A stretch of DNA of 64,000 nucleotides, taken from contig NC_049979.1 in NCBI RefSeq assembly GCF_000003815.2, forward strand, positions 1,187,979 through 1,251,978, in the 5' to 3' direction. Origin of the DNA: Branchiostoma floridae (Eukaryota; Chordata; Leptocardii; Amphioxiformes; Branchiostomatidae). Below, in pieces: positions 40,621-60,400 of the stretch. A model generated the notes under the pieces. It was given only the letters and a program-made list of their open reading frames with translations, searched no databases and had not been told where the DNA came from. Both the position numbers and the translations under genes were made by a program. Every line of letters begins with the position of its first letter. Positions within the stretch are counted from its first letter, which is position 1.

Positions 40621-43600
40621 CTACGGAACATAGTCTGACTTAATCTGTGCCAGTTTTTCAAAGTCCCGTTTGTAGAGTTTGTTGAGCAGCTGTGGAAGCT
40701 CGATAACGCATCCCCTATCCTCGAACTCGTGACAGTAGTCCAGGATGTAACGGACGCACCGCGGCGTCGCGTCATCCTCCATGCACGGGGCGTAGGAACA
40801 CGGGCACTTTGGGTTCTTGTCGTCAAATACGCACCTTTCACCTTCCTACAGAAAGAAGATAAATTAAACAAATGTAGTTACTTTTGCCAAGAGGTTTATG
40901 TTCTCAGTAGCATTCTTGTGTGTGTTTTCTGATGGACAGTGTAACTCTATAATCGGGCTGAATCGGGCTACCCAGGAGTCCGAAAATACCAATAAACAAT
41001 AATAAATAATAATAGAGTACCTTAACTAATGGATCAATTGTATTGACATTTGCTATGGGTGTAGATCTAGACGAGATTTTGAGATGATTACATTTTTTCC
41101 CCAAGGGCTTATTTCGGTATTGCAGCAAAACTTCTGGATTTGATGTCTCGAGTTCTACACATGCTATTGTCATCCTTTTTTTAGTGGTAGATTATAAGCT
41201 CTTGGGGAGAGAGTACATGTAAGTGGTGTAGGTTTGGACCCTCTATTCTAACTGCAGGAGCCACTTAGTTTCAGACTTTGAAAGAGAAATAACCAAGAGG
41301 GCATTGGCTGATTGTTATGTTTTTTTTACATGTACATAATTGAAGTGATGATAATTGTTGGGCTCCCTTGGAAATAAGATTTTTGTTAAAGATTAATAAA
41401 TGAATAAATGCTTATTTCACCTATATTTGCAGGGACATAATTTTGCAGTAAGAAGGAAAAGGTGGTTTTCAGCATCAACACATGTTACAGAGTTAAATGT
41501 TTTACATTGGAAGCACATATTTTCAGTGTCATGAATTAAAACTGTGTACAAGTACAGTACACATTGAGCAACTATCCATGTAGTAAAGCCACTACCTCAG
41601 AGTAGTCAGGTCCATTGAACTCTTCCAGATCTTCCTTCATGGTCTCGAACTTGTAGAGGCTCATGGGACTGTTCTGACTGGTGCAGGTAATCCTGGGAAT
41701 GGAGCTGCTCACGTTCTGGACCCAGAGCTCGTGCGCAGCCAGCCACTGTCCGTAGGAATACTTCCTATCTGGGTTTCCTACACAAAAAAACACCAAACAT
41801 CACACACTTGTGACATTCTGGACCCAGAGCTCGTGCGCAGCCAGCCACTGTCCGTAGGAATACTTCCTATCTGGGTTTCCTACACAAAAAAACACCAAAC
41901 ATCACACACTTGTGACATTCTGGACCCAGAGCTCGTGCGCAGCCAGCCACTGTCCGTAGGAATACTTTCTGTCTGGATTTCCTGTACATAAAATATCAGA
42001 TACATCATCAATTTCTTATGTTCTGGACCCAGAGCTTGCACACAGCCAGTCACAACCCGTAGGACCGTACTTTCTATCTGGGTTTCCTAAACATGAAATA
42101 CATGTATCAGAAACATGGTCAGCAGCCAACACTGTCCGTAGGAATACTTCCTATCTGGGTTTCCTGTACATAAAAACACCAAACATTGGACGCTTGTGAC
42201 ATTCTGAACCCAGAGCTCGTACGCAGCCAACCACTGTCCGTAGGAATACTTCCTATCTGGGTTTCCTGAACATAAAAACACCAAATATCAAACTCCAAAC
42301 ATCAGACACTTGTGACATTCTGGACCTAGAGCTCGTAGGCAGCCAGCCACTGTCCGTAGGAATACTTCCTATCTGGGTTTCCTGTACACAAAGTATCAGA
42401 TACATCATCAATTTCTTATGTTCTGGACCAGGAGCTTGCACACAGCCAGTCACAAACTGTAGGAATACTTTCTATCTGGGTTTCCTGTACATAAAAACAC
42501 AAAACATCAGACACTTGTGACATTCTGGACCCAGAGCTTGTAGACTGCCAGCCACTGTCCGTAGGAATACTTCCTATCTGGGTTTCCTAAACATAAAAAC
42601 ACCAAACATCAAACTCCAAAGATTGGACACTTGTGACATTGTGGACCCACAGCTCATACGCAGCCAAACACTGTCCGAAGGAATACTTTCTATCTGGGTT
42701 TCCTAAACATAAAAACACCAAACATTGGACGCTTGTGACATTCTGGACCTAGAGCTCGTAGGCAGCCAGCCACTGTCCGTAGGAATACTTCCTATCTGGG
42801 TTTCCTGTACACAAAATATCAGATACATCATCAATTTCTTATGTTCTGGACCCAGAGCTTGCATACAGCCAGTCACAAACTGTAGAAGTACTTTCTATCT
42901 GGGTTTCCTACACAAAAAACACCAAACATCAGACACTTGTGACATTCTGGACCCAGAGCTCGTGTGCAACCAGCCACTGTCCGTAGGAATACTTCCTATC
43001 TGGGTTTCCTAAACAGAAGAACACCAAACATCAGACACTTGTGACATTCTGGACCCACAGCTCATGTGCAGCCAGCCACTGTCCGTAGGAATACTTCCTA
43101 TCTGGGTTTCCTGTACATAAAAACAACAAATATCAAACTCCAAACATTTGACACTTATGACATTCTGGACCCAGAGCTCGTATGCAGCCAGCCACTATCC
43201 GTACGAATACTTCCTATCTGGGTTTCCTGTACACAAAATATCAGATATATCATCAATTTCTTATGTTCTGGACCCTGAGAGCTTGCACGCAGCCAGTCAC
43301 AAACTGTAGAGGTACTTTCTATCTGGGTTTCCTACACAAAAAACACCAAACATCAGACACTTGTGACTTTTTGGACCCAGAGCTCGTAGACTGCCAGCCA
43401 CTGTCCGTAGGAATACAAAGTCTCTATCTGGGTTTCCTCAACATGAAATACATGTATCAGAAACGTGGTCAGAAGCCAACAATGGCCATAGGAATACTTT
43501 CTATCTGGATTTCCTACAAAAACCCCAAATATCAGCCACTTGTGACGTTCTGGACCCAAAGCTCGTACGCAGCCAGCCACTGTCCGTAGGAATACTTCCT

Positions 43601-46600
43601 ATCTGGGTTTCCTAAACATAAAAACACCAAAAATCAAACACCAAACATCAGACTCTTGTGACATTCTGGACCCAGAGCTCATGTGCAGCCAACACTGTCC
43701 GTAGGAATACTTTCTATCTGGGTTTCCTGTACAAAAAACACCAAACTCCAAACATTGGACACTTGTGACACTCTGGACCCAGAGCTCTTATGCAGCCAAC
43801 ACTGTCCGTAGGAATACTTTCTATCTGGGTTTCCTAAACATAAAAACACCAAACATCAAACTCCAAACATCACACACTTGTGACATTCTGGACCCAGAGC
43901 TCGTGTGCAGCCAACACTGTCCGTAGGAATACTTTCTATCTGGGTTTCCTGTACATAAAACACCAAACTCCAAACATTGGACACTTGTGACACTCTGGAC
44001 CCAGAGCTCTTATGCAGCCAACACTGTCCGTAGGAATACTTTCTATCTGGATTTCCTGTACATAAAAACACCAAACATCACACACTTGTGACACTCTGGA
44101 CCCACAGCTCCTAGGCAGCCAGCCACTGTCCGTAGGAATACTTTCTATCTGGGTTTCCTGTACAAAAAAACACCAAACTCCAAAGATTGGACACTTGTGA
44201 CATTTTGGACCCAGAGCTCGAGTGCAGCCAGCCACTGTCCGTAGGAATACTTCCTATCTGGGTTTCCTACACAAAAAAACACCAAACATCAGACACTTGT
44301 GACTTTTTGGACCCAGAGCTCGTAGGTAGGCAACCGCTGTCCGTAGGAATACTTCCTATCTGGGTTTCCTGTACACAAAATATCAGATACATCATCAATT
44401 TCTTATGTTCTGGACCCAGAGCTTGCACACAGCCAGTCACAACCCGTAGGACCGTACTTTCTATCTGGGTTTCCTAAACATGAAATACATGTATCAGAAA
44501 CATGGTCAGCAGCCAACACTGTCCATAGGAATACTTTCTATCTGGGTTTCCTAAACATAAGAACACCAAACATCACACACTTGTGACATTCCAGACACAG
44601 AGCTTGTATGCAGTCAACTACTGCCCGTAGAAATATACTTTTTCTTTGGTTACCAAAACCAAACATCATGAACTTTCCAAAGCAAACGTCACGAACATCC
44701 ATCCGTGAGTCCATCCATCCATCAATCTATCCATCATACGTTAGCCCACCTGCAGTTTTGAGTTCCTGTGAAAGTAGACTCTGCTCCTGTGGCTGTTCCT
44801 TTGTGCCCTGTGCCTGTTTGTTTGTGTCCTGTGCCTGTTTGCTTCCCTCCTGTGCCTGTTTGTTTGTGTCCTGTGCCTGTTTGCTGGCAGGCTTCGAGCT
44901 CCATCTGATGCTCACAGCCTGCTGCCTGCCTGGGTCAGGCCTGACCTGTCTCCACCACAGCTGTGGGACGTACAGCAGGTCACCTTCCTCCAGCTCTGCC
45001 TGCTGGTACTGCACATCGGCCACTCTGGGGAGACACAGGGAACACAAACTTCAGAACAGGTAATACAAACATCAGAACAGGTAATACAGCTATCAGAACA
45101 GGCAATACAGACATCAGAACAGGTAATGCAGACTTCAGAACAGGCAATAGAAATAGGTAATGCTTTCCAAGCAGAGGTTCCGTTCTGATTATTTTTTAAA
45201 AATCTGCATTTAGGCACAACGTTGGTGGCATATTCAGCCAAGGACCTCGTGGTTATGGGCCAACCTCCATGACGTTATGGCACACAACCCCACCATCAGG
45301 CATAGCTATGTGTGACCCTAATCTGACCTTGGATACTTGTCCATATCCACAGAGTTGACATCCACAGGAGAGACTCCGAGCACCTCTGCCTCATCTGCAT
45401 ACACGTCGTTAGAATGTAGCGGTGACACCAGAAGTACCGTCCGGGGCCCACGCAGGACTACTAACAGGTTCTACATGTGTACAAACGAGTGTCATCATCA
45501 CAAGCAGGGCTCGAAATACCACCTGCATATGCAGGTAAAATTAGAGCTGTGCAGGTATTTCTGGTGTCTACCTGCACCTAACCTGCACTGGCTCATGTAC
45601 TGGGTTTTATACATAAATGTTCTATGATGTAGACGAATGGATTGTTATTAGCTGCATTGACTGTTACCACCTATTAAGTATGAAATAAAAAAAATAGCAA
45701 TGGTTCCTCAACAATTCTAGTATTCTTCCTAAATTCAGAGTGGTGCAGGTAAAATTTGTCTGGTGCAGGTAATTTTCTGTGCAGGTATGTAGAAAAAAGT
45801 ATTTCCAGTGCTGACAAGGCAATGGCATTTATTTCAGCACCAAGGACATGTCCTTCTACAAAGGCCATGTTGTATTGATTATATGGATGACATCTCGGCA
45901 TGCATCAATTTTCACCAGGTTAAAGAAATGTTTTGACTTAATTATTCATAGTATAAAGAAACAGTTGTAAAATTAGCACATATATGCTGTAAATTGAAAA
46001 AAAAATATTGGAAAACAGATACGACACCATGACTTGCATCTTCAATGTACAAAATGCACATGTATTTGTAATGTACTAGTACTACACATTTGTTTCAACT
46101 GCAAACATCAAACAACCTAAAAACTTCTTTCCTCTTCCTACAAAATGGAAAAAGGATCGAAGTAAAGGGTTCCTTTCTCCAGTGCTGAAGTTACGTCAGC
46201 ATTGGCTGTCCGATGGTCAGACGACTTCAGCATTGGTAAACTCTGAATCAGCACTAGAAACCGAGAGCTGAGAGCACCTTCTGCACTGGAAAAATATCCT
46301 ACCTCTTGGGTGTCAATGTGCAGTCTGTCCTCCCCACTGTCTGTATGGAGCTGACCTACCTCCTGTGTGTCTATGTGCAGTCTGTCCTCCCCACTGCCTG
46401 TATGGAGCTGACCTACCTCCTGTGTGTCTATGTGCAGTCTGTCCTCCCCAGTGCCTGTATGGAGCTGACCTACCTCCTGTGTGTCTATGTGCAGTCTGTC
46501 CTCCCCACTGTCTGTATGGAGCTGACCTACCTCCTGTGTGTCTATGTGCAGTCTGTCCTCCCCACTGCCCATATGGAGCTGACCTACCTCCTGTGTGTCT

Positions 46601-48767
46601 ATGTGCAGTTTGTCCTCCCCACTACCTGTATGGAGCTGACCTACCTCCTGTGTGTCTATGTGCAGTCTGTCCTCCCCACTGCCTGTATGGAGCTGACCTA
46701 CCTCCTGTGTGTCTATGTGCAGTCTGCCCTCCCCACTGCCCATATGGAGCTGACCTACCTCCTGTGTGTCTATGTGCAGTCTGTCCTCCCCAGTGCCTGT
46801 ATGGAGCTGAGTGGTGAAAGACTGGGAGAACATCTCCTCACAGCGCAGACACGTGGGCAGCATCACATCCTCTGGAGCAGGGAGGACACAAATGGGATTG
46901 TCACAGGAAACAGTCAAGTTTCATCAAGTTGGCAGAATAAAAGATATAAGATATTGAAGATTTCTTTTCACACAACCAGTAAATTCTTGCATTATCGCCA
47001 CAAAAAGGTGCCACCTACATCAGCTACATTTGCGATGAGAAGCAATTAACTTCAGTTAGAAGCTCAGACTGAAGAAGGTGTCTGAGAGACATTGAAACAT
47101 ATTTACTGGTTGTACAAAAAGAATCTTCAATATCCAGTAAAACTTGCTCTGACAACATGTTAGTTAGCTAAAATCCTTCCCATACATTTTGTTCTTTTGA
47201 GGCTGTGCTCATTGCTGATTCTGTAGGCCACAAGGACATTACTTTTACAAGAATGTGTTCCTCACTCATGATCTTTCTCATAAGGGCTGAGTGCTTAGCA
47301 GAGAATGTATTTTGTTAAAGTCTTAAACTTGAGTATTTCAACTTGAGTATGAACTGTTCAAGGTTAAACGTTTAACCCCCAACCTACCAAATACAGTACA
47401 AGGCAAATGCTTAGATCAACCTTACTGCCCATTGCACTGATCAGTTTTGTTGTAGCCCTGTGAAATGCTGTCCCCTAGCAGTTTAAGAGAAAACTGCAAT
47501 TGCTTCATCACAAAAAAAAAAAAAAAAAACAGATGACAAAACCTACTCTTCATGTCAGGATTCAGTTCTTTGGCCTTGTTCTGGTTTCCGTCCTGTTGTG
47601 TGTTGAAATGTTGCTTTAGATACTCTTCATCCCACAGCGTGAGGGCGGGCCAGTGTTTTGCCCCACCTGGAAGTAGAACATGTCACACATAACAAGGAGT
47701 GAATTTCTGCAAAACTATCAATTCTCACTCAGAAAAGTTTTTGTCCTAACAGGTGTAACATCAACAGATACTAATAATGGAAATGAGGCTAATTTGAATA
47801 ATTGATGCCTGTTTAATACCTTCCAGAAATGTAACATCTGATTGGTAATACATTTGTACCAGCCAAATGAAACAAGACAGTGTGCAAACCTATGCAAAAG
47901 TTAATCTCCAAGCAGATGTAAGGAGGATCCAGCTAATCACCAGTGTTCTATAACACATAAACTGTTAAATGTTTTTGAAACATTTAGTACTGTTATTGCA
48001 GTATTTTTGAAAGGTTTATAGTCACTCAATCCAGGTGAAAATTCCTTAGGCTAGCAATTACAGCTTGATCATTGAAATGTACAAATCCCTAAGCTTAATA
48101 GCTTAATTGAATACATGTACTAATTATTGGACCAATTAAAACGATGGACCAATAATCTAAGCAGATGACACATTCGATAAAACGTTTGATATTACAAGAC
48201 AGCACATAAACGTTGATGACAATCGTTTTTTTTTTATTACATTGCAGGCAACAAGTATTGTAAAACTACTAAAAGCAATCAACAGGGAATCTCCAAGGAG
48301 ATGTAGAATGGCAAAATCGTAACTTTTCTCGGCTCAACATCCTGGGTGACCTTACACAACTACAGACCGTCTTTTCTGAGGGACAGGGTTACTTGGATAC
48401 TTGGAGACTAAGTACGATCCCCTGCAGTACGTCTAGTCGTACCTTTAAACAGCAGTGGTCTGTGCTTCGCCACGAAGTGCTGGTGGAAGTCCTGCGGGGA
48501 GATCATGTAGGGAAGGGCCGTCACGGCTCCGGCGGGCTCGCGGTGAGACCCGAACGGGCGCCCGTGCCCTCGTCCCCGCCGCCGCTCGGGCGTTTCCTCG
48601 TCTCCTGGCACCACAGCGCTTCCGCGGGGACAGTCACCCTTCGTGCAGAATTCTGCACCCTCTTCTGACGGTGAACTTTGTGTGTTGCCGTCATTGTTCT
48701 CGCCACCAGACACCTTCAAGTACAGCAGAGGTGCGAGCACAACTAACAGAAAATATCTCGGCAACAT
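40621..48767 (-). CDS. Secretory-pathway JmjC (cupin_8) protein, 7 exons
   Basis: Exons (minus): 48767-48443, 47666-47547, 46871-46759, 45470-45328, 45024-44750, 41777-41596, 40845-40621; all phases agree and give 460 residues. Residues 1-20 (MLPRYFLLVVLAPLLYLKVS) form a signal peptide. JmjC/cupin_8 signatures follow: RPLLFKGGAKHWPALTLWDE across exons 1-2, NPDMKKDVMLPTCLRC across 2-3, the HxD motif in LHIDTQENLLVVLRG across 3-4 (H181, D183), and LEEGDLLYVPQLWWRQV in exon 5. In active JmjC oxygenases the second W is followed by the distal iron-binding histidine; here it is R259. Exon 5 also has KQAQDTN/KQAQEGS repeats. The C-terminus is cysteine-rich (CVFDDKNPKCPC). JmjC proteins are usually Fe(II)/2-oxoglutarate oxygenases; the signal peptide argues for an ER or secreted role. 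Orthology not determined. Two internal tandem arrays duplicate splice junctions. Confidence 0.88.
41717..44645 (-). repeat. Array of about 27 copies of a splice acceptor plus exon start
   Basis: The first part of JmjC exon 6 (GNPDRKYSYGQWLAAHELWV), together with the intron end before it (read on the minus strand, GTTTTTATGTACAG or GTGTAG), is repeated about 27 times upstream of the real exon with a period near 105 bases. Most copies keep an AG followed by GAAACCCAGATAGG. Two subtypes alternate irregularly. Copies lack the second half of the exon and its donor; instead the frame runs into TCACAAGTGT and usually a stop. Confidence 0.93.
45045..45160. repeat. 21-bp tandem repeat in a JmjC intron
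   Basis: About five copies of a unit like ACATCAGAACAGGTAATACAG, in the intron just upstream of exon 5. Likely simple expansion. Confidence 0.85.
45507..45815. mobile_element. MITE with GGGCTCGAAATAC termini (copy 2)
   Basis: Starts GGGCTCGAAATACCACCTGC and ends near AAAAAAGTATTTCCAGTGCT, the right terminus being eroded. Same orientation and interior as 55262-55607. Lies in the JmjC intron immediately upstream of exon 4. Confidence 0.72.
45863..46035. mobile_element. Fragment of Harbinger-like MITE
   Basis: Begins GGCCATGTTGTATTGATTAT and continues through ATGGATGACATC to a region matching 29600-29700 (TTGTAAAATTAGCAC, GGAAAACAGATA). The other end was not found, so it may be truncated. Confidence 0.6.
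46300..46812 (-). repeat. 57-bp coding minisatellite with HxD motif and splice donor, 9 copies
   Basis: The unit is the 3' end of JmjC exon 3 plus the start of its intron. Read on the minus strand each copy encodes QLHTGSGEDRLHIDTQE and then GTAGGT, a consensus 5' splice site. There are nine copies, eight with GAG/GTAGGT and the most distal with GAG/GTAGGA. Since 57 is a multiple of three and the unit has no stop in this frame, use of any of the nine donors keeps the downstream frame. The frame beyond the array stays open to 46138 but has no recognisable sequence. Confidence 0.92.
46940..47145. mobile_element. Small Penelope-like (pLTR-type) remnant
   Basis: An inverted repeat flanks it: ATATTGAAGATTTCTTTTCA and CACAACCAGTAAAT at the left, ATTTACTGGTTGTACAAAAA and GAATCTTCAATAT at the right. 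Next to the right arm, CTGAAGA at 47069-47075, a GTGTCT/AGACAT stem and GAAAC at 47094-47098 form a hammerhead-like core. The same plan occurs at 49230-50111. No coding sequence. Confidence 0.5.
47146..47546. other. JmjC intron 2 sequence
   Basis: Nothing beyond a poly-A run at 47512-47529 was recognised. Confidence 0.4.
47700..48440. other. JmjC intron 1 sequence
   Basis: No exon or bounded repeat seen. A poly-T tract lies at about 48226-48236. Confidence 0.4.
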
Positions 48768-57400: not shown

Positions 57401-60400
57401 GCTGAGGCGGCAGGAGGAGTCCATCTCCATGGAGATCCAGCTGCAGGAGGACAGCATCAGCAGGTGGGTGTACTGTGGTTTACAGTCAGTGTTCTCCCCA
57501 GGCTTTTGGTGACAATACTGTGTAAGGGCATCTTAGTGTAGTGGAGGAGGACAGCATCAGCAGGTGGGGCATGCTCTGGTCTCAGGCTGTGTACCATGGT
57601 TTACAGTCAGTGTTCTCCCCAGGCTTTTGGTGACAATACTGTGTAAGGGCATCTTAGTGTAGTGGAGGAGGACAGCATCAGCAGGTGGGGCATGCTCTGG
57701 TCTCAGGCTGTGTACCATGGTTTACAGTCAGTGTTCTCCCCAGGCTTTTGGTGACAATACTGTGTAAGGGCATCTTAGTGTAGTGCAGGAGGACAGCATC
57801 AGCAGGTGGGGCCATGCTCTGGTCTCAGGCTTACAGTGTTCTCACCAGGATTTTCTCAATGTGTAGGGGCCCAAATCACAGCATAGGGGCCCAAATCACA
57901 GCATAGGGGCTCAAATCACAGCATAGGGGCTCAAATCACAGCCTAGGGGCCCAAATCACAGCATAGGGGCCCAAATCACAGCATCGGGGCCCAAATCACA
58001 GCATCGGGGCCCAAATCACAGCATCGGGGCCCAAATCACAGCATAGGGGCCCAAATCACAGCATAGGGGCCCAAATCACAGCATAGGGGCCCAAATCACA
58101 GTGTAGGGGCCCAAATCACAGTGTAGGGGCCCAAATCACAGCCTAGGGGCCCAAATCACAGCCTAGGGGCCCAAATCACAGTGTAGGGGCCCAAATCACA
58201 GCATAGGGGCCCAAATCACAGCATAGGGGCCCAAATCACAGCGTAGGGGCCTAAATCACAGCATAGGGGCCCAAATCATAGCGTAGGGGCCCAAATCACA
58301 GTGTAGGGGCCCAAATCACAGCATAGGGGCCCAAATCACAGCATAGGGGCCAAAATCACAGCATAGGGGCCCAAATCACAGCATAGGGGCCTAAATCACA
58401 GCATAGGGGCCCAAATCACAGCATAGGGGCCCAAATCACAGCATAGGGGCCCAAATCACAGCATAGGGGCCTAAATCACAGCATAGGGGCCCAAATCACA
58501 GCATAGGGGCCTAAATCACAGCATAGGGGACCAAATCACAGCATACGGGCCCAAATCACAGCATAGGGGGCCAAATCCCAGTGTAGGGGCCCAAACACAG
58601 CATTCTCAGGGGCCCAAATCCCAGTGTAGGGGCCCAAATCACAGCCTAGGGGCCCAAATCACAGTGTAGGGGCCCAAATCACAGCATAGGGGCCCAAATC
58701 ACAGCATAGGGGCCCAAATCACAGCACAGGGGCCCAAATCACAGTGTAGGGGCCCAAATCACAGTGTAGGGGCCCAAATCACAGCATAGGGGCCCAAATC
58801 ACAGCGTAGGGGCGGCCCAAATCACAGCATAGGGGCCCAAATCACAGCATAGGGGCCCAAATCACAGCATAGGGGCCCAAATCACAGTGTAGGGGCCCAA
58901 ATCACAGAATAGGGGCCCAAATCACAGCATAGGGGCCCAAATCACAGTGTAGGGGCCCAAATCACAGAATAAGGAATCCAGATCACCGTGTAGGGGCAGC
59001 AGTATAATCAAATAATGGATATTACTACTACTATTAATATGTGTACGACTGTTACTAAAACTACATTAACTATTACATTAATCATTACATACTCTGTGCT
59101 GCAGGGTCGAGCAGCAGTTCTCTGCAGAGCGGGCTCAGCTGGAGGAGGAGAGGAGGACCATCGACAGGAAGCAGGCAGAGCTGGAGGCCCAGGCTGGGGA
59201 GGCCACACAGGAGGAGCTCATGCTCAGGGGCAGGGAGGGGGAGATACAGGGGGAGGAGAAGAGGTAAACTTTGGCATAACTTAGTAGAAACTTCTTACTA
59301 ATAGTATCAGTAAGTTAGGAGAGGAGGAGTATCGACAGGAAGCAGGCAGAGCTGGAGACCCAGGCTAGGGAGGCCACACAGGAGGAATTCATGCTCAGGG
59401 GCAGGGAGGGGGAGATACAGGGGGAGGAGAAGAGGTAAACTTTGGCATAACTTAGTAGAACTTCTCAGTAAGTTAGGAGAGGAGGACAATCGACAGGAAG
59501 CAGGCAGAGCTGGAGGCCCAGGCTGGGGAGGCCACACAGGAGGGACTTACACTCAGGGGCAGGGAGGGGGAGATACAGGGGGAGGGGAAGAGGTAAACTT
59601 TAGCATAACTTCTTACTAATAGTATCAGTAAGTTAGGAGAGGAGGGGCATCAAAAGGAAGCAGGTAAGGTGGGAGGAGCACACTCTCAGAAACAGGGATG
59701 GGGTACACATGAAGTAGAAGAGGATTATTTTGCAGGGTTTTGGCTGTCCCAATATTGTTTTACTGGCCATTCTGCCGCTTTCTGGTCAAGGTTGAGAAAT
59801 TAAATTCTTTTTGTACAGACTAACTTCAGTAAGTCTAGCATTATAGGCTTGACCACACATGGAAAAGTGAAGATGGCCCAGTTAGCTCCTTAACTAGCCT
59901 AGGCCATCAAAGTTGTCCGATTCTGCTCTGAACTGCTGAATCTTATTAATTAGTTAAGAGAAGGCTCTCGTATTTGCAAACAAGGTAATCTCTTTATCAG
60001 TGTTAAATTTTCTGTGTGAACAAATGCATGGAAGCTATCATGTCGGCATAATTTCAATTTAAGTAAGCCTATTAGTAAAAAATTTGGAGGTACGTGTGTT
60101 AACCTTTAAAAAGTAGTCACTGCTTGATGAAAATTCGATTAACTGAGGGGTACATTTGTGTTTCAGACTGCAGGACAGGCTCCAGTCCATACAGGAGAAA
60201 GTGTCCCACATGACATGCCAGGCCCAGGAGCTGTGCAGCAGAGCAGAGGACATGGCGGCTCTGCCAGTCTGCACAGGAACCATTCACACTCACAACCAGC
60301 AGCTCACAAGGTCAGCAGGGCAACTGAATCACTTACTATCTGGTTTACCATCCGTTGTTCCCTGTCTTGCAGGCTAGGGGTTGGATGTTTCGTCAAGTTG

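Follow-up and report, generated by a model that had tools for sequence, protein, structure and literature searches.

Where exon 3 meets intron 3 in a JmjC-type gene of Branchiostoma floridae, the boundary is present nine times in tandem, every copy carrying both the end of the exon and a splice donor. This arrangement raises the question of which donor is used, that is, whether the nine sites yield a graded series of in-frame isoforms or whether one of them is spliced regularly and the surplus copies are discarded with the intron. The first-pass annotation had named both outcomes. We followed the question through the window, by which we mean the whole stretch of 64,000 nucleotides that was analysed, and through homologous loci and proteins. 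The array is a case of an established amphioxus phenomenon, the mirage, and its kind is already known; the interest of the locus lies in what a single gene combines, namely two mirages, an annotated isoform that is truncated and an intron that was probably gained.

The host gene and its nine-unit array

The exons of the host gene were assembled by reading frame, canonical AG/GT sites and homology, and the resulting frame of 460 codons is unbroken (Table 1). The predicted protein matches Cupin_8 with 97.8 bits against a Pfam cut-off of 27.4 (E 1.2e-27) and JmjC_2 with 20.7 bits, under the cut-off of 22. The nearest solved structures by sequence are those of human JMJD5/KDM8, and with the Cupin_8 match this upholds the earlier assignment to a JmjC-type gene. 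Of 17 database proteins, the four that match best all come from Branchiostoma, namely P0001 (B. floridae x B. japonicum hybrid), P0002 (B. floridae), P0003 (B. lanceolatum) and P0004 (B. belcheri), and the name of P0002 identifies the host organism as a cephalochordate. Deposited names of the homologs differ (KDM8, JMJD5-like, Jmjd7-like). The database is clustered at 90% identity, and the clusters of P0001 and P0002 have two and three members, respectively. P0002, a JMJD5-like isoform X1 of 337 aa, is most likely the public model of the present DNA. At the KQAQ minisatellite of exon 5 it is 14 residues shorter than the local frame, despite its placement on the same contig; the shortfall is possibly an expressed shorter allele.

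Table 1. Positions of the features discussed; unless a locus is named, coordinates are those of the window.
Feature	Position	Strand	Basis
Host gene, Cupin_8/JmjC, 7 coding exons, 460 aa	40621..48767	-	Frame, canonical AG/GT, homology
Coding exons of the host gene	48767-48443, 47666-47547, 46871-46759, 45470-45328, 45024-44750, 41777-41596, 40845-40621	-	
Exon 3, 113 nt, with unit 1 and donor 1 at its end (intron starts at 46758)	46759..46871	-	Canonical AG/GT, frame, homologs
Donor mirage, nine 57-bp units, each exon 3 end + GTAGG	46298..46810	-	TRF
Units 2-9, intronic if the first donor is used; unit 9 most divergent	46297..46752	-	Distance table
Intron 3, 1288 nt, under the first-donor model	45471..46758	-	Exon boundaries
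Dispersed repeat inside intron 3	45505..45808	-	77-88% identical to further places
Exon 5 with coding 21-bp minisatellite (KQAQ repeats)	44750..45024; TRF 44785-44883	-	
Acceptor mirage, 27 intronic copies of the exon 6 start and the true one	41778..44551	-	TRF, pattern search
Third mirage-like array, other gene of coiled-coil appearance	59148..59664	+	TRF, donor sites
Donor mirage of paralog L021, at the exon encoding YHLANMEEGDMLYLPQMWWHQ	L021:4105-4430		

According to TRF, the array has a period of 57 bp, 9.0 copies, 94% matches and 0% indels, and a nine-fold array 94% alike is not chance. It overlaps exon 3 by 51-52 nt: each unit consists of the last 51-52 nt of the exon and the first 5-6 nt of the intron, and the unit starts inside exon 3 at ACT|CAG. 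On the minus strand the exon frame reads HIDTQE in each of the nine units, GAG|GTAGG is present in each, and all nine translate as QLH-(T/M)-(G/D)-(S/T)-GE-(D/G)-(R/K)-LHIDTQE-VG. Both the nine tandem copies of LHIDTQE and the growth of a minisatellite from this boundary, as first described, are thus borne out; the GTAGGT said to follow each unit is found in eight of the nine, the ninth reading GTAGGA. The last exon bases of the nine possible donors are 46759, 46702, 46645, 46588, 46531, 46474, 46417, 46360 and 46303, and the first intron base after donor 1 agrees with the donor position originally given, 46758. Around the splice site, donors 1-8 show no difference in any of the bases compared. 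The assembly holds no second haplotype copy of the array, all nine matches lying at a single locus on C1.

Joined to exon 4, every one of the nine donors gives an open frame, as had been claimed, with products of 460, 479, ... 612 aa that carry one to nine HIDTQE motifs. An in-frame, open unit of 57 bp is unsurprising in itself because it has a chance of about 15%, the product of 1/3 for a period divisible by three and 0.45 for openness, the latter being the share of 20000 shuffled units that were open in a given frame. The read-through frame 46138-46920 also returned matches to Ribosomal_L19e (E 3.5e-08, above the cut-off, best stretch 18 residues) and to DUF2807 and DUF6470 (under the Pfam cut-offs), all of which were taken as spurious.

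The first-pass annotation had credited each unit with a metal-binding motif. The HxD is indeed present (H181-I-D183, aligned with the HxD of JMJD5), but the distal position, YWHYV in JMJD5, reads WWRQV or WWRHV throughout the four Branchiostoma orthologs, with Arg in place of the metal-ligand His; with the distal His missing, the case for nine metal sites is weak and was rejected. The replaced residue is number 259 of the 460-aa protein and lies in exon 5. At the same position the other 12 rows of alignment A1 have His (10 rows) or Gln (2 rows, one from the coral Orbicella). The four orthologs also lack a 27-residue stretch, which has the same length in 11 of the 12 other rows and is 30 residues long in the twelfth. 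Because of the exchange of the distal His and the missing stretch, the host protein is more likely a degenerate or repurposed member, possibly a pseudoenzyme, than an active oxygenase. Seemingly without part of the metal site, it may tolerate change.

The host protein shares the JmjC fold and HxD with JMJD5/KDM8 (PDB 6avs, 6f4m and others), which provide the top fold matches at 25-27% identity (best E 6.6e-15, for the P0001 model). It differs from them in the distal Arg and, as read from the sequence, in a hydrophobic, signal-peptide-like N terminus and a cysteine-rich C-terminal region. In the AlphaFold model of P0001 (mean pLDDT 62, pTM 0.53) the unit corresponds to strands 168-173 and 180-182, which adjoin strand 186-193.

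Further boundary arrays in the window and beyond

Intron 5 of the same gene is mostly filled by copies of the start of exon 6 at a spacing of 77-116 bp. The copies share 50 to 68 of 70 exonic positions, and AG is kept in all 28 found with a pattern that allowed five substitutions and would miss more divergent copies. Entry at any of the 27 intronic acceptors in the phase of exon 6 runs into a stop 10 to 66 codons further on, short of exon 6. P0002 ends in ...GNPDRKYSYGQWLAAHELWVQNVTSV (tail ...QNVTSV), which within intron 5 occurs only at copies 43111, 41982 and 41880; since the tail of X1 matches intronic acceptor copies, the annotation, at least, uses a mirage acceptor.

The nearest paralog, L021 on C2, has seven exons and a donor mirage of its own, in which 105 bp are repeated 3.1 times across HQ|GTGAGT. 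A third mirage-like array lies in another gene of the window; its donors read GAAGAG|GTAAAC, and their last exon bases are 59263, 59434 and 59592 (spacing 171 and 158 bp). Directly upstream of it are two arrays at 57468-57831 (121 bp x 3) and 57864-58971 (20 bp x 55).

As a frequency control we used 51 exon-sized matches, comprising 30 p450 loci of 118 matches and 21 ABC loci of 21. An array with a period of at least 30 was present within 100 bp of the match in two of the 51 (L050 and L057); both loci were read, and the tally of duplicated splice sites is 0 of 51. Of the 14 exons of the two JmjC genes, 3 have an array that runs at least 10 bp across a boundary, a count to be set only roughly beside the control, whose rules differ (the end of a match is not a splice site, the exons of p450 genes are long and some loci share a gene). 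Given 0/51 against 3/14, mirages recur but do not occur at every exon. At one p450 match (L050:1447-1563) we observed an exact 58-bp x 2 duplication that shifts the reading frame.

Choice among the nine donors

We read the array as an amphioxus mirage of which the first, exon-proximal donor (46759/46758) is likely used while units 2-9 are likely removed as intron, and assign this reading a probability of about 0.86 from the sequence evidence. P0002 carries FTTQLHTGTGEDRLHIDTQENLLVV, in which FTT precedes unit 1 and exon 4, beginning with NLLVV, follows (FTT-QLHTGTGEDRLHIDTQE-NLLVV); no other donor than the first gives this sequence, so this model uses donor 1. All four Branchiostoma ortholog models contain a single LHIDTQE unit, and no multi-unit protein was found, the four close ortholog models among the 17 hits in the 90%-clustered database having at most one unit each. 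Use of mainly the first donor, which the first-pass annotation had offered as its alternative, agrees with both observations. Further support for the reading comes from the arrays of similar kind that lie in intron 5, in L021 and in a different gene of the window.

Among the nine units 11 columns vary. Two pairs match exactly (units 1 and 7, units 3 and 8); units 1-8 show 0-5 differences among themselves, whereas unit 9 shows 4-8 to the others, being an edge copy that escapes homogenisation as in mirage arrays. Five or six of the seven variable columns of units 1-8 change the amino acid, with 78% of possible changes expected to be non-synonymous and 22% synonymous at random. The pattern appears close to random change, without any trace of protein constraint, and fits copies that are not translated. 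In unit 9 the three private exonic changes are without exception synonymous (P = 0.011 if random, from small numbers and a test chosen after the data were seen). The exon copy may have been under constraint and then have overwritten the inner units, leaving unit 9 behind at the far edge. In P0003 and P0004 the unit is two residues longer (GEAGSK/GEASSR as compared with GEDR), as in the paralogs. Since these two residues are absent from all nine local units and from P0001, the array arose, or was last homogenised, after their deletion.

Up to nine isoforms, as originally proposed, would result if the nine donors were used alternatively, giving proteins with one to nine 19-residue units. The array would permit this, as nine donors are intact, the period is 19 codons, no unit contains a stop and every isoform stays open to its end. 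We nevertheless regard graded isoforms as quite improbable and have rejected nine functional isoforms as the main reading: the ortholog models have one unit in four of four cases, P0002 needs donor 1, the inner copies (units 1-8) show no protein constraint and an open frame would be kept by accident in about 15% of cases. Extra units would, moreover, repeat the core barrel strands 168-173 and 180-182 in the P0001 model, whose mean pLDDT is only 62, and published mirages splice regularly according to the passages on splicing in PMC3087553 and PMC3902484. That all copies are exonic, with the last donor (46303) as the main one and a nine-unit protein as the product, accords with the open frame through the whole array and with the synonymous-only private exonic changes of unit 9; it is extremely improbable, as the four ortholog models contain at most one unit each and the inner-unit substitutions mostly change the amino acid. 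Tandem arrays are often miscounted in assemblies, and with the array at a single place a misassembly of one or two units might have inflated the copy number. Simple stutter would not give units that differ at 11 columns with identical pairs that are non-adjacent, however, and comparable arrays exist both in L021 and in a different gene, which makes an assembly artefact very improbable.

Some observations count against use of the first donor. With donors 1-8 alike, the local sequence gives donor 1 no advantage; a multi-unit model could hide inside the P0001 or P0002 cluster owing to the 90% clustering; P0002 itself ends in an intronic acceptor copy, so that the annotation admits mirage splice sites in this gene; and the purely synonymous private changes of unit 9 could mean constraint on that unit. 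A refinement compatible with the preferred reading holds that donor 1 is dominant, that downstream donors are used at a low level and without regulation, and that the acceptor mirage of intron 5 yields a real, truncated minor isoform. This is possible at somewhat less than even odds: it would account for the tail of X1, which in intron 5 lies only at the three intronic copies, and the globin paper, where it discusses splicing, allows cryptic use of mirage sites (PMC3087553), but X1 is a computed model.

On the preferred reading, the array would have grown from the exon end by unequal crossing-over or replication slippage. Judging from the two array edges, the exon end was probably once joined directly to the GTAGGATATTTT start that now follows unit 9. 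The array would be tolerated: every choice of copy leaves LHIDTQE|NLLVV at the junction, and copies past the first donor would stay untranslated. Homogenisation within the array (1 = 7, 3 = 8) likely keeps the spare donors intact, and if a downstream donor were used now and then, the protein would gain 19 in-frame residues for each unit.

Origin of intron 3 and comparison with known mirages

Intron 3 (E186|N187) is absent from all seven fetched paralogs that cover the position (L021, L022, L023, L024, L025, L026 and L027); L023-L026 are uninterrupted over most of the domain and carry little weight, and weak matches that do not cover E186|N187 were left out. The host gene and L021 agree, exactly or nearly so, in the positions of introns 1, 5 and 6 and differ in those of introns 2, 3 and 4. 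The introns LG|VSP and HQ|V, present in L021 and in L022 (where they were judged by match ends and nearby GT/AG), are missing from the host gene. Given its absence from the seven covering paralogs, intron 3 was, by parsimony, probably gained in the host gene. It contains a dispersed repeat with at least 40 further places (40 scored of 3248 first-look candidates). Also in intron 3, adjoining the array edge, 13-nt inverted arms (TTTCCAGTGCTGA and TCTGCACTGGAAA) stand 465 nt apart (45802-46292) and are perhaps a small transposon.

A bolder reading would take the array as the mark of a young, lineage-specific intron 3, and hence the locus as live mirage-driven intron turnover in a chordate, with a donor mirage on a newborn intron and an intron 5 mirage already leaking a truncated isoform; we advance it tentatively and hold it to be rather unlikely in this full form. 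So far mirages are on record for a few amphioxus genes, and it has been proposed that new introns can arise through them. The present gene offers a clean and unusually testable case, with one mirage at a donor and another at an acceptor, the former in frame and on an intron absent from the paralogs. New here are the acceptor mirage of intron 5, the donor mirage of L021, the third array of the window and the probable gain of intron 3. No title on this gene appeared in the literature searched; JmjC was not among the terms, so that this says little about print at large.

The passages on mirages in PMC3087553 (BMC Evol Biol 2010) describe them as minisatellites that duplicate an exon-intron boundary, with the globin genes BflGb6 and BflGb9 as examples. 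They affect both 5' and 3' boundaries, with AG/GT on many, though not all, repeats. In BflGb6 the units measure 150-160 bp, and two haplotypes have 6 and 3 units; in BflGb9 a 157-bp unit is present as a duplicate. The edges of the globin arrays escape homogenisation. Adh3 data and globin RT-PCR are given there as suggesting regular splicing, with cryptic use possible, and new introns are proposed to originate from mirages. For Adh3 of B. floridae and B. lanceolatum, the same paper cites mirages that have units of 10-72 bp over the exon-intron boundary and are unstable in length, also somatically. According to the section on lancelet splice-site repeats in PMC3902484, PGBD5 and troponin C (TnC) extend the list, again with regular splicing undisturbed. 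In human duplicated genes, variable internal tandem repeats are described at exon-intron boundaries, where they may form a new intron; for segmental duplications, the relevant passage reports that for 66% of such intron changes transcripts also support the form in which the repeat is retained (PMC2812944).

Five mirage features are found in the present array: tandem repetition, a boundary-spanning unit, AG/GT copies, a cephalochordate host and an edge copy that is not homogenised. It resembles the globin mirages, as far as these are described in PMC3087553, in the tandem duplication of a boundary, the AG/GT copies and the unhomogenised edge, and differs from them in its nine in-frame, open units of 57 bp and in the second, 27-copy acceptor mirage of the same gene. 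The annotation of X1 at a mirage acceptor is likewise unlike the cases set out in those parts of PMC3087553 and PMC3902484. With the Adh3 mirages the array shares a boundary-spanning unit, in another gene. The repeats of PGBD5 are characterised as imperfect (3 x 108 bp, PMC3902484), whereas the nine copies here are 94% alike. With the human repeats outlined in PMC2812944 the array has in common a minisatellite at a gene boundary, the human case being one of segmental duplications.
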